From: Rubritalea profundi
GTDB taxonomy: Bacteria > Verrucomicrobiota > Verrucomicrobiia > Verrucomicrobiales > Akkermansiaceae
Length of the DNA stretch: 64,000 nt
Direction of reading: 5' to 3'
Assembly: GCF_002954445.1 (NCBI RefSeq)
Contig: NZ_MQWA01000001.1
Coordinates: 3,679,780-3,743,779 of the forward strand
Made by a program: the position numbers and the translations under genes. The notes under the pieces are model-generated. The model ran no database searches, had not been told where the DNA came from, and saw only the letters and a program-made list of their open reading frames with translations. Of this stretch, positions 36,211 to 40,073 are shown piece after piece. Positions within the stretch are counted from its first letter, which is position 1. Each line of letters opens with the position of its first letter.

Positions 36211-36562
36211 AATAAGATAAAATATCTGATGTAGCTATATCATTGAACCTTCTTTTGAGCAAGAAAAATACTCTAATATAGCGTCATTATTTGACATGCT
36301 TTTCATCAATATATCCATCATCAACTTCGGTTTTATTTTTAGAATGACTTTTATAGTCTATAATTGATTTATTTTGAATTATCGCAACTTATTCATGTAG
36401 AGTCGATTGTTGTGTTATCCTGTTAAATTTCTAATGATCTCCCACACAATTCTATTGCTATTGAGATTCATTCTCGATAGGTTTATTTCAACCAAGCGAG
36501 GTCACCATCAATTATTAACTCCAGTGGCTGGTGACTTGGCTTGGAATCCAAAAATATAAATT
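36211..36562. other. AT-rich intergenic region between cytochrome c and porin operon
   Basis: This 352-base divergent control region has no convincing ORF. It is very AT-rich and should hold the promoters of both flanking units. Apart from the Fur-like box near its right end I see no repeat, RNA or terminator. Confidence 0.6.
36460..36478. promoter_or_regulatory. Fur-like operator upstream of the porin operon
   Basis: ATTGAGATT (36460-36468), centre C, ATTCTCGAT (36470-36478) is a 9-1-9 imperfect palindrome with seven of nine positions symmetrical and the same ATTGAGA and ATTCTC halves as the operator at 17000-17018. It lies 85 bases upstream of the porin ATG. The match between two unlinked sites supports one regulator. 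Confidence 0.6.
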
Positions 36563-37666
36563 ATGAATAAGACACTATTCACGACTGCAGCATTGAGTTC
36601 TGCATTATTAGGCGTAGCCTTTGCTGGTAGCGAAGTTGACGCACTCGACTCCTCACTGATCTCTAAAGAACAGAGTTTGTTCGATCGTTTCTCGTTTGGA
36701 TCGTACGGTGAAATCCATGCACAAGTAGGTGATGGAACAGACAATATTGACCCTCATCGTATAGTGCTGTTTGCTGATTTTAAGCTCACAGACAAGCTCA
36801 GATTTGTTTCAGAGACCGAGCTAGAACACGCTCTACGTAAATATGAAGGATCCGATTGGACTTCTGACGGAGTAGAATTCAAGCTTGAGCAAGCGTACTT
36901 TGAGTACAGCTTTAGTGAAGAAGTCACTGGTTACGCAGGTCTCTACCTGGTTCCAGTAGGAGTTATCAACCAAATTCACGAGCCGACAACATTTTACGGT
37001 GTTGAGCGCCCTAATGTAGAAAAGTACATACTTCCAACAACATGGACTGAGCTAAGTGTTGGTGCTTCCAAGAAATACGACAACGGTCTCCAAGTTGATG
37101 CAGTTCTGCACTCAGGATTAGATACGAGAGGCAGCGATGGCTATATCCGTGGAGGACGCTCTAATTATCAGTTCGAGGAGTACCAGCAAAACACTGACAG
37201 TTGGGCTATGACAGCACGTGCAAAGTACACCGGTATTGCTGGTGTGGAACTCGCAGGTTCACTCCAGTATCAATATGATACTTCTAGCAGTCTTTCCGGA
37301 CAACAGGACGCGATATTAGCATCCACACACGGTGTCTACCGTAAAGGTGGTTTCCAGTTCATTGCTCTAGCAAATTATTGGAATATTGATGGTTACTCAG
37401 ATAGCGATACAGAAAACCAGTGGGGCTATTATTTTGAACCTTCCTACGCTTGGGATACAGCAATTGGTAAAGTGGGGGTGTTTGGTCGTTTCTCTCAATA
37501 TGAGTACTTCAAGGGCTCACAGAAAGAGATCTCAGAGTTTTCAGTCGGTGCGAACTATTGGCTTAACGAAAACTGGGTTGTGAAAACGGATTACCTCAAT
37601 GCTGACGAAAAAGGTAAGTCAGGATCTAACGAGACATACAACTTTGGTATTGGCTGGAGTTATTAG
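36563..37666 (+). CDS. Outer-membrane beta-barrel porin
   Basis: The 367-aa product has a signal peptide (MNKTLFTTAALSSALLGVAFAG) and then alternating amphipathic strands with many aromatic residues. It begins with RFSFGSYGEIHAQVGDG and continues with DKLRFVSETELEHAL and GVEFKLEQAYFEYSF, the pattern of phosphate-selective/OprP-like porins and of carbohydrate porins, and the C-terminus is GIGWSY, the terminal aromatic residue that helps barrel insertion. It lies first in a unit behind a Fur-like box, followed by FMN-binding, PepSY-type and ApbE genes. It may let ferric complexes or other solutes reach the periplasm; substrate specificity is not readable. No plug domain is present, so it is not a TonB-dependent receptor. 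Confidence 0.85.
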   Translation: MNKTLFTTAALSSALLGVAFAGSEVDALDSSLISKEQSLFDRFSFGSYGEIHAQVGDGTDNIDPHRIVLFADFKLTDKLRFVSETELEHALRKYEGSDWTSDGVEFKLEQAYFEYSFSEEVTGYAGLYLVPVGVINQIHEPTTFYGVERPNVEKYILPTTWTELSVGASKKYDNGLQVDAVLHSGLDTRGSDGYIRGGRSNYQFEEYQQNTDSWAMTARAKYTGIAGVELAGSLQYQYDTSSSLSGQQDAILASTHGVYRKGGFQFIALANYWNIDGYSDSDTENQWGYYFEPSYAWDTAIGKVGVFGRFSQYEYFKGSQKEISEFSVGANYWLNENWVVKTDYLNADEKGKSGSNETYNFGIGWSY

Positions 37667-37725
37667 TCTAAATTCTACTACAAACTGGCTGGTTGCTTCT
37701 TCTTGGCCAGTGCAGTATAAAACCT

Positions 37726-38277
37726 ATGATTTTTAAATCGTCATTCATAACACCCGTTCGGTCATTTTTTGGCCGGGCGGCTTTTTTCGTTCTGGCGATT
37801 ACTTTTCTGGGCTCATTTGTGAGTGCTGCTGAGAAGGTCTATGAAAAGCCATCGACTTTTATGACACGTCATTTCGGAGCTATTCCCCAAACCCAGGTAA
37901 TTACTCTAAGTGGAACTCAGTCAAAGCAGCTTAAATCGATTTTAGGCCACAAATACGCAACAAAAAAAATCCGTTATTGGCAGGCAAACGGCAAGGCTGC
38001 TTGGATTCTCGAAGAAAAAGGTAAGAGCGAACCTATAACCACGGGGATCATTGTGAAGGATGGCAAGATTTCTGAGCTTAAGGTGCTAGTCTACCGTGAG
38101 AGTCACGGCTGGGAAGTCACTAGACCATTTTTCACCAAACAATTCGTAGGCTCATCACTGGACGGTAAGGTGTTGAATAAGAAGGTGGACGGGATTGTGG
38201 GAGCCACATTGTCTGTTCGTGCGCTTAAAAAATTAGCCGCTGTAGCCTTGTATTTATCCCAAGAAACTGGGAAATAG
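37726..38277 (+). CDS. FMN-binding domain protein, exported
   Basis: From ATG 37726 (MIFKSSFITPVRSFF) the protein has 183 aa; the in-frame ATG at 37693 adds 11 residues in the intergenic stretch. A signal sequence or membrane segment FFVLAITFLGSFVSA precedes the mature part. The FMN_bind domain, residues about 75-170, has TGIIVKDGKISELKVLVYRES and the flavinylation motif DGIVGATLS, whose Thr is the site where ApbE attaches FMN through a phosphoester. The ApbE gene lies two genes downstream. It is very likely a covalent flavoprotein carrying electrons on the periplasmic side. It starts 59 bases after the porin stop. Confidence 0.85.
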   Translation: MIFKSSFITPVRSFFGRAAFFVLAITFLGSFVSAAEKVYEKPSTFMTRHFGAIPQTQVITLSGTQSKQLKSILGHKYATKKIRYWQANGKAAWILEEKGKSEPITTGIIVKDGKISELKVLVYRESHGWEVTRPFFTKQFVGSSLDGKVLNKKVDGIVGATLSVRALKKLAAVALYLSQETGK

Positions 38278-38282
38278 CACGG

Positions 38283-39095
38283 ATGTCCGACTCAGACACA
38301 ACATCAGGAAGTGCAGCCTCATTTCAAGTGGGGTGTTCTGTTGTGTGTGATGTAGTTCGTAAGCCAAAGCGTAAGAAACGCAAATCTAGATCATTGCATC
38401 GGTTATTAGGCATGATTTCTGCTCTTCCCCTTGTGTGGGTTTTACTGACAGGGCTGGTACTCAATCATTCTGAAGACTTCGGTTTGGACTCTGTGGAGTT
38501 AGAATCCCCACTCATACTTTCAGCATACGGCATGACCCCAGCAGGTGGCGCTGAATCATTGGTTTTGCACGGGCACTCTATTACATCTTGGGATGGAGTG
38601 GTGTTTTTTGACCAACGACCTCTTGACCTCGAAGGTGAGATTATTACCGCGTTGCCCATGGGAGATGGGATGGCGATTGTGAGTGATAGTACAGTTCTTC
38701 GAGTTGATTTTGAAGGAAGTGTCATTGAAAAATTAGATGAGCTTTCATTACCATCTATCCCTTTGTTGGAAGCTGGAATTTTTGATGGGAAAATGGCGCT
38801 TCGCTCTTCAGATAGTTGGCACGTAGCGGATGCTGACTGGATAGAGTTTTCCGCTATTAGCGAGACCGTCACGCCTATCAGATTACAGCCACTGGAGGAT
38901 GGTGATTTAAAAGAAGCACTCAGATCTCGTTGGTCTGGTGGTGGGGTTTCACTTTCACGTTTCGTGCTAGACCTTCACGCAGGAAATTTCTTGGGTAGCT
39001 TCGCAGCTTACTTTTATGACTTTGTTGTTCTGTGCACTCTTTGGTTGATCGCTACAGGTATAATCTTACAGTACCGTACGAACCGTCGAGGCTAA
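38283..39095 (+). CDS. PepSY-associated membrane protein
   Basis: The 270-aa product begins with a basic cytoplasmic end (RKPKRKKRKSRSLHRL) and then a membrane helix GMISALPLVWVLLTGLVLNHSED, the HRLLG-x5-PL-x8-GL-L pattern of PepSY_TM proteins. A large periplasmic part follows (about 65-230), with a second helix DFVVLCTLWLIATGIILQYR near the end. PepSY_TM proteins often carry b-type haem or electrons across the membrane, and members next to FMN-binding proteins are thought to supply electrons to them. It lies five bases after the FMN-binding gene and three before apbE. A ferric or other reductase role is inferred. Confidence 0.8.
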   Translation: MSDSDTTSGSAASFQVGCSVVCDVVRKPKRKKRKSRSLHRLLGMISALPLVWVLLTGLVLNHSEDFGLDSVELESPLILSAYGMTPAGGAESLVLHGHSITSWDGVVFFDQRPLDLEGEIITALPMGDGMAIVSDSTVLRVDFEGSVIEKLDELSLPSIPLLEAGIFDGKMALRSSDSWHVADADWIEFSAISETVTPIRLQPLEDGDLKEALRSRWSGGGVSLSRFVLDLHAGNFLGSFAAYFYDFVVLCTLWLIATGIILQYRTNRRG

Positions 39096-39098
39096 GTA

Positions 39099-40073
39099 AT
39101 GAAGACAACTCGACGCAGTTTTCTAAAGAGTGCTAGCACTGCCAGTCTAGCGTTGCTCTTTTCTCATTGTAGAAAGTCAGATGAAGCTCAGTTATTTACC
39201 GAGAGCGAGAGAGTTGATAGCTATTGGTCTGGAATTGGTTTCGGTATCGAAATGAGTGCGGAGTGGTATAATGTGGATAAGAATTGCTTACCACAGATCC
39301 ATGCTATGATTGAGCAAACGATCCAAGAATTGGAATCGGCATTCAGTCTCTATAGTGATTCATCCGAGTTAAGTAGGCTCAATAGTGGTCGCGCGTTAAG
39401 TAATCCTTCGAAAATATTCACAGAGTTATTTGTTATCTCAAAGAAACTGGTTGAGCGGACTTCGGGACTTTGTCAGCCAGCAATCCATGGCGCGTGGAAT
39501 GCTATAGAGAGTAAACCATTTTCAACTAACTGGAAGCAACGAGTTCAAGCTGCATCGCTCGATTTCATTCAATTCGATGGAGAGAGTATAAAGCTCACGA
39601 ATAGACTAACAGAGGTAAGTTTCAACGCCCTGGTTCAGGGTTTTTTGACTGACAAAGTAGCTCAGGCAGCTAGGGAATTAGGGATGACTAACGCACTTTT
39701 ACATCTAGGGGAATCCTATGCTATTGGCAAACATCCAGAAGGACGAGATTGGTCGCTTGCTGTGATGGGAACCCCTCATGGTGAAGAGGTAGATCTCGTA
39801 GGCACCATGGAGTTTGCCGATGCTGGGCTGGCTGTTTCTACACACGACACATCGCGAAAGTTAGTCAATCCGCTCACGGGCGAGGTATTACAGCATGATC
39901 GAGTAGTCGCTGTGGTGAGTAGTGAGGGTGCGACTGTAGCAGACGCCTTCGCCACAGCATTTGCTGTTGCCAATAAATCGCAATGGGAACAACTCTACGA
40001 TTCTCTGACACTCAATAAAGTTGGAGTAGTCAAAGTTTGGCAGAAGAATCAGCTCGTTTTTGAGCGCGCTTGA
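39099..40073 (+). CDS. apbE: FAD:protein FMN transferase
   Basis: ApbE attaches FMN from FAD to a Thr or Ser of partner proteins. The 324-aa product has a twin-arginine-like signal [19 protein letters not shown] with a following SHC lipobox, so it is likely exported folded and lipid-anchored. Domain features seen include [16 protein letters not shown] (near 85), the block [22 protein letters not shown] and the metal-binding [11 protein letters not shown] near the C-terminus. The expected G-A-K-G sequence appears altered to NALVQG. It ends the porin-FMN-PepSY-ApbE unit; its substrate is probably the FMN-binding protein encoded two genes before. The 3' end overlaps convergent ligA by 25 bases. 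Confidence 0.87.

Follow-up and report, generated by a model that had tools for sequence, protein, structure and literature searches.

Gene clusters that combine a PepSY-like membrane protein with protein flavinylation were defined in 2021 by Meheust et al. and were proposed to function in iron reduction and assimilation, and some of them are repressed by Fur (PMC8238504). A relative in Caulobacter, CCNA_03155-03159, is a Fur target whose insertion mutants are less fit in ethylenediaminetetraacetic acid (PMC12004947). Fur-boxed porins have also been predicted to serve in iron uptake: psp of Geobacter metallireducens and Desulfuromonas, described in 2004 as weakly like PF07396 (excerpts of PMC545781), and FeoP of Acidithiobacillus, described in 2008 as belonging with feoABC (excerpts of PMC2631029). 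Here, we analyzed a stretch of 64,000 nucleotides from Rubritalea profundi (contig NZ_MQWA01000001.1, positions 3,679,780 to 3,743,779; referred to as the window), whose source genome is available as 4.17 Mb in 4 contigs. The window contains an operon for a porin, a flavin mononucleotide (FMN)-binding protein, a PepSY_TM-family membrane protein, and the flavin transferase ApbE. The operon falls within the published cluster definition, namely, a PF03929 or PF16357 protein in a flavinylation-associated cluster (PMC8238504). We consider it rather probable that it is a Fur-repressed module for reductive iron uptake, in which electrons would pass from quinol through heme and covalent FMN to Fe(III), supplying Fe(II) for FeoB.

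Operon architecture and conservation

The four genes lie in a row on the + strand with gaps of 59, 5, and 3 bases in the list of open reading frames (ORFs), and an operator precedes them:

36460-36478, + strand: Fur-box-like operator ATTGAGATTCATTCTCGAT, 84 bases before the porin start
36563-37666, + strand: OprP-fold 16-strand outer-membrane porin
37726-38277, + strand: FMN_bind protein with a signal-peptide-like N-terminus and the flavinylation motif DGIVGATLS
38283-39095, + strand: PepSY_TM-family inner-membrane protein with two transmembrane (TM) helices and three conserved His
39099-40073, + strand: ApbE (FAD:protein FMN transferase), with a Pfam match and a twin-arginine translocation (Tat)-type N-terminus

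An earlier note on this DNA, made from the sequence alone, had described four same-strand genes with gaps of at most 60 bases and an ApbE encoded in one unit with the FMN_bind protein, and both descriptions hold. Pfam matches above the cut-off were obtained for FMN_bind (E 3.3e-7), PepSY_TM (E 4e-12), and ApbE (E 1.1e-27); the porin matched Porin_4 weakly and under the cut-off (E 4.8e-4). The FMN_bind gene was taken to start at ATG 37726, the upstream TTG 37693 being a less likely alternative. Pfam recognized no cytochrome c domain in the four operon proteins, so that the unit contains no multiheme c-type cytochrome partner, and Rfam gave no match in the operon region.

The gene order that the earlier note had proposed to look for in other genomes was found there. 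Among 58 relatives, the FMN protein had 14 matches, the window's own included, and the order porin-FMN-PepSY occurred in 10 other genomes of the same genus, family, or order. ApbE follows in 9 of these 10, and the remaining locus (L048) runs into a contig end, with a partial ApbE visible (L150). A first sample comprised 80 loci taken from public genomes, of which 73 combine the genes for porin, FMN protein, and PepSY protein: 32 with the full order porin-FMN-PepSY-ApbE, 30 with the first three genes, 8 with these three and a divergent ApbE, and 3 in which all three are present but ORFs overlap or are split; the other 7 were partial. According to the record titles, the module occurs in Verrucomicrobiota, Gammaproteobacteria, Alphaproteobacteria, and Planctomycetota. 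Within the window's phylum, 21 of 388 genomes matched, and in one proteobacterial class the porin was present in 86 of 369 genomes. A second sample, drawn by a porin search in that class and sharing at least the L121 genome with the first, comprised the best 30 porin loci of the 86; porin, FMN, and PepSY genes were present in 27 of these 30, and the other three were two short loci (about 3.1 kb versus 4.2 kb) and one with the porin only. A first scan of the collection with the ApbE query found no relative, and a plasmid search with the FMN protein gave no match.

As a four-gene unit, the operon is thus conserved in Verrucomicrobiota, but ApbE is not obligatory and some distant loci do not have PepSY. 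ApbE is encoded locally in Verrucomicrobiota and some Alphaproteobacteria, and all eight checked proteobacterial genomes without a local copy encode ApbE elsewhere. Five loci of 3.4 kb (L156 to L159 and L161) carry porin and FMN genes with no PepSY match, although a PepSY gene could lie farther off. In two more 3.4-kb loci, the porin and FMN genes are followed by another small membrane protein:

L167, 831-1337, and L169, 2022-2459: small membrane proteins in the PepSY position, with weak family matches

These variants without PepSY or with another membrane protein suggest that the core of the module may be porin plus FMN protein and that the electron entry may be exchangeable.

Fur-like operators and iron-gene neighbors

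The operator before the porin gene is an imperfect 9-1-9 palindrome, ATTGAGATT-C-ATTCTCGAT, in which 7 of 9 pairs match. As the earlier note had observed, it resembles an operator elsewhere in the window:

17000-17018, + strand: perfect palindrome copy ATTGAGAATAATTCTCAAT, before the DUF3450-ExbB-ExbB-ExbD genes at 17092-20169

The two operators presumably share a regulator. Next to these genes, the product of 20166-20867 is a TonB candidate by position, with no Pfam match.

In the window alone, palindrome matches with up to 3 mismatches numbered 13 versus 8.5 in shuffles, not clearly beyond chance. We then considered the whole genome, where the consensus (up to 3 mismatches) gave 14 forward matches versus 4 with a reversed control. 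The sites closest to the consensus lie mostly at iron genes, and the matches include a FUR-family gene with SUF genes, ferritin, a TonB-dependent receptor, the ExbB/ExbD operon, and the porin operon; several weaker matches fall inside genes with no evident iron link. The first of these, site 5127 in L060, stands before the FUR-family gene, which is followed by the SUF genes, and likely marks an autoregulated iron regulator with Fe-S assembly. Because the matching sites lie at iron genes, we read the palindrome as a Fur box.

We then scanned loci of the first sample, allowing up to 5 mismatches in a stretch of about 370 bases around the porin start and using dinucleotide shuffles as the control. 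Of 71 loci, 62 had a Fur-like box, where about 2 were expected, comprising 30 of 33 Verrucomicrobiota loci (0.75 expected) and 32 of 38 others (1.35 expected). The second sample agreed, with a box in 19 of 30 loci versus 2.05 from permuted consensus strings. Recurrent proteobacterial sites at the porin start, such as AATGATAATGATTTGCATT, have what we take to be the look of classic Fur boxes. Since the boxes are kept across genomes, a chance origin of the palindrome is strongly disfavored and was rejected, even though the window alone was not significant. The palindrome at 36460 is, by comparative evidence, a candidate Fur box. Together with the iron regulon in its own genome, the boxes across phyla provide strong indirect evidence that the operon is iron controlled, as the earlier note had supposed.

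Iron genes adjoin the module in several loci. FeoB is found before the porin on the same strand in L105, L108, and L121, as well as beside the module in L093; FTR1 adjoins it in L098 and L145, ferritin-like genes in L076, L116, L120, and L126, and ExbB/ExbD/TonB-type genes in several Verrucomicrobiota. Pfam confirmed FeoB (L121, L093), FTR1 (L098), ferritin (L120, L126), and ExbD (L086), and the other assignments rest on clustering or on reading of the N-terminus. In the second sample, 4 of 30 loci, including that of the L121 genome, have a FeoB-like sequence no more than about 1.5 kb away; by our own estimate, the expected number is about 0.05 if a 3-Mb genome holds one feoB. Altogether, the porin-flavin set is probably a widespread route of iron reduction for uptake, present in several phyla.

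Two hairpins were noted in the operon. One, at 36492-36545, is a strong hairpin in the leader that separates the Fur box from the porin gene, and this leader is more stably folded than shuffled sequence (z −3.15). The second is terminator-like:

37754-37780, + strand: terminator-like hairpin of 11 pairs with a T-rich tail, located within the initial codons of the FMN gene

The latter is possibly an attenuator, and because of its position at the FMN gene start, the four genes may be transcribed unequally. Similar hairpins occur at the porin-FMN junction in 17 of 77 loci versus 1.8 expected from random windows of these same loci not matched for intergenic position, which suggests that more porin than redox protein is made. 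Promoter-like sites in the region were no more numerous than in shuffles.

Predicted components and electron route

The FMN_bind protein (PF04205, 31.3 bits versus a cut-off of 22) is probably periplasmic. It contains the flavinylation motif DGIVGATLS that the earlier note had pointed out, and both GAT and the S two residues on (GAT-x-S) are invariant in all 90 FMN_bind sequences, including the Thr. The residue before GAT is V in the window, A (36 sequences), S (7), or V (6) in Verrucomicrobiota, and S or T in 41 of 41 others; since it varies, the first position of the [S/T]GA[S/T]-type motif is relaxed. A possible explanation for A, V, or S at this position in Verrucomicrobiota is coadaptation with the dedicated ApbE. 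The protein had no sequence match in the PDB. ApbE itself matches PF02424 with 97.6 bits (cut-off, 25.6), and N176, G181, E205, and the metal-binding D282 and T286 are invariant in 57 sequences, with Q180 in 55. Its Q-G and G-E sequence is a variant, and the paralogues in the same genome (L002, L003, and L004) have K-G instead of Q-G. Besides its Tat-type N-terminus, ApbE has a Cys that could belong to a lipobox.

The earlier note had described the third gene product as a PepSY membrane protein. This stands at the family level, with a PF03929 match of 47 bits (cut-off, 28.8) beside FMN_bind and ApbE; among its relatives, PF03929 was found in 51 of 51 and PF16357 in 49 of 51 (E ≤0.01). In the model, however, the periplasmic part forms a partial beta-propeller and not PepSY domains. 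The model, built from one sequence, that of the window, has a mean predicted local distance difference test (pLDDT) score of 90.8, with two TM helices (residues 34-61 and 240-269) and the partial propeller at about residues 85-199. Its structural matches are mostly beta-propellers, the best with Z 9.7 and 2.4 Å over 101 residues, and no PepSY-type structure was among the matches listed; a search of PDB sequences gave one weak, irrelevant match only. Some relatives have a PepSY version of 123 to 160 residues without most of the propeller part. His39 and His232 are present in 84 of 84 sequences and His62 in 77 of 84 (92%), and by analogy with FoxB, these conserved His near both membrane faces would fit heme ligands. 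The N-terminus (38283-38400) also carries a possible metal site, the Cys-x3-Cys stretch GCSVVCDVVR, which among the aligned sequences is shared only by those of the window, L043, and L044.

The porin model has 16 strands (mean pLDDT, 83.8), and its fold is closest to OprP (Z 26.5; root mean square deviation, 3.1 over 297 residues). In sequence comparisons, the porin profile had no PDB match, and PF07396 (Porin_O_P) did not match the window porin, although 8 of 11 porin family members match at E ≤1. A siderophore porin of the LbtU type was also considered and was rejected after the porin search gave no such match. Conserved positions include E50, H52, D63, and H65, as well as E84, E86, E88, and H89 (the three Glu on strand 3), E105, E107, and E109 on strand 4, where the window has Lys at 107, and H139, E140, E148, and E153 in the loop between strands 5 and 6. 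With their alternating spacing, the Glu of strands 3 and 4 may form a ladder that faces inward.

Gene content, order, conservation, Fur-like boxes, and iron neighbors were computed, and from them we infer all chemical and transport steps. When iron is scarce, Fur would leave the box at 36460 and the unit would be expressed. The porin could then admit iron, as the ion or a small chelate, through a channel lined with Glu and His, as the conserved positions and the model suggest. ApbE would attach FMN to the Thr of DGIVGATLS (Thr172 when counted from TTG 37693), consistent with the motif and the coencoded enzyme. The two-TM PepSY_TM protein would pass electrons, probably from quinol, via heme on His62 and His232; heme might also be held by His39, which lies toward the cytosolic side, perhaps in a dimer. 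The covalent FMN would take these electrons and reduce Fe(III) to Fe(II), which would enter through the FeoB that this genome encodes away from the operon.

Alternative explanations and comparison with known systems

A bolder version of this route, which we regard as doubtful, is a widespread outer-membrane uptake without TonB or siderophore. An iron-selective porin would pass iron through its Glu/His-lined channel to a flavinylated reductase bound where the pore opens into the periplasm, and the minimal two-TM heme protein would be the electron entry. The outer-membrane step could instead involve ferric siderophores, imported by the porin or by a separate TonB receptor, with the flavin/heme pair releasing the iron by reduction. 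Characterized PepSY_TM proteins are indeed ferrisiderophore reductases (PMC13001220, PMC13038864), and ExbB/ExbD/TonB-type genes lie beside the module in several Verrucomicrobiota, with the window's ExbB/ExbD operon sharing the operator. Nonetheless, neither genes for siderophore synthesis nor a TonB receptor was recognized directly beside the module in the inspected flanks, whose annotation was nonexhaustive, and the constant outer-membrane partner is the porin; we therefore regard a siderophore route as unlikely. If the porin and flavoprotein formed a conduit, the FMN protein would dock in or on the porin and send electrons outward, so that iron would be reduced at the surface as in porin-cytochrome conduits. 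The pairing of porin and FMN genes without PepSY (L156 to L159, L161) or with another membrane protein (L167, L169) favors this, but a 16-strand barrel is probably too narrow for a whole FMN_bind domain, and such a conduit appears very unlikely.

Two further proposals would move the module away from iron uptake. In iron-sparing respiration, raised as a possibility in the flavinylation survey (PMC8238504), the flavoprotein would replace a periplasmic c-type cytochrome under iron starvation and the porin would bring a nutrient or acceptor. A divergent c-type cytochrome gene (35539-36210) does adjoin the operon. L044 also has a cytochrome c gene beside the module, as does L045, where it forms part of a longer ORF. 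This neighbor, however, was seen in close relatives only, the membrane protein keeps His of the heme-ligand type, and FeoB, FTR1, and ferritin neighbors suit uptake better, making iron sparing quite unlikely. Least probable, to the point of being nearly negligible, is a role with copper or another metal, in which the module would reduce Cu(II) or feed oxidase assembly, as proposed for Bordetella CrpH, a PepSY_TM protein that supports the function of heme-copper oxidoreductases (PMC13038864). A weak CopD match in L169, a distant locus with a different membrane protein, points that way; however, Fur-like boxes across phyla and iron-gene neighbors speak for iron, and no copper genes were recognized among the recurrent neighbors.

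Several observations weigh against the reductive iron-uptake reading that we favor. The PepSY_TM protein is without the periplasmic domains of characterized reductases such as FoxB. Porins allow passive passage only, and little free Fe(III) exists at neutral pH. Most loci have no recognized iron gene next door. Around the FeoB_C match of this genome, a search of 3.2 kb revealed no Fur-like box, although the beginning of its operon may lie outside this region. Of the relatives, 10 of the 11 that carry the module encode FeoB, but so do 34 of the 47 that lack it; because FeoB is so common without the module, genome-level co-occurrence is uninformative and was rejected as support. Moreover, several sequences in the first sample come from related organisms, so its counts overstate independent events. 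If reductive iron uptake is nevertheless the role of the operon, many environmental bacteria would possess a so far unrecognized ferric reductase that is controlled by Fur and coupled to a porin of its own, and this would help to explain the supply of Fe(II) to FeoB-bearing bacteria in oxic water.

The earlier note had held that such a ferric reductase route was not clearly described as a unit. This is correct for the porin-led version: no description of a porin-FMN_bind-PepSY unit was found in the openly readable literature, subscription papers and supplements not being covered, and the word porin is absent from the main text, supplements aside, of PMC8238504. It does not apply to PepSY-like clusters in general, published in 2021 (PMC8238504) and represented by the Fur-regulated Caulobacter relative (PMC12004947).

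Among known porins, the OprP/OprO phosphate porins share the barrel fold. OprP is known for its arginine ladder, in contrast to the conserved Glu/His positions of the porin studied here. FeoP is of the OprB type, unlike this OprP-fold porin; the excerpts of PMC545781 and PMC2631029 report no flavoprotein or PepSY partner for psp or FeoP. The FoxB/HiuB ferrisiderophore reductases are comparable in their His of the heme-ligand type on TM helices, periplasmic electron transfer, and iron context (PMC13038864, PMC13001220). They act in siderophore uptake and combine PepSY domains with four or more TM helices, whereas two TM helices and a partial beta-propeller are predicted for the protein described here, which shares with the FoxB type the conserved His near both membrane faces. 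Caulobacter CCNA_03155-03159 likewise joins a PepSY-family protein to a flavin-dependent partner (PMC12004947), but with DUF2271/DUF4198 in place of FMN_bind and porin. There is also a likeness to the clusters of PMC8238504, in which PepSY_TM, ApbE, and a flavinylated extracytosolic protein are encoded together. Those clusters usually contain DUF2271, often DUF4198, and in some cases a TonB receptor or VIT1; here, Pfam found no DUF2271, a frequent but nondefining substrate, in the four operon proteins, and FMN_bind and a dedicated porin are present instead. Thus, the operon extends the known PepSY-like flavinylation system by a porin-led version and does not establish a separate kind.

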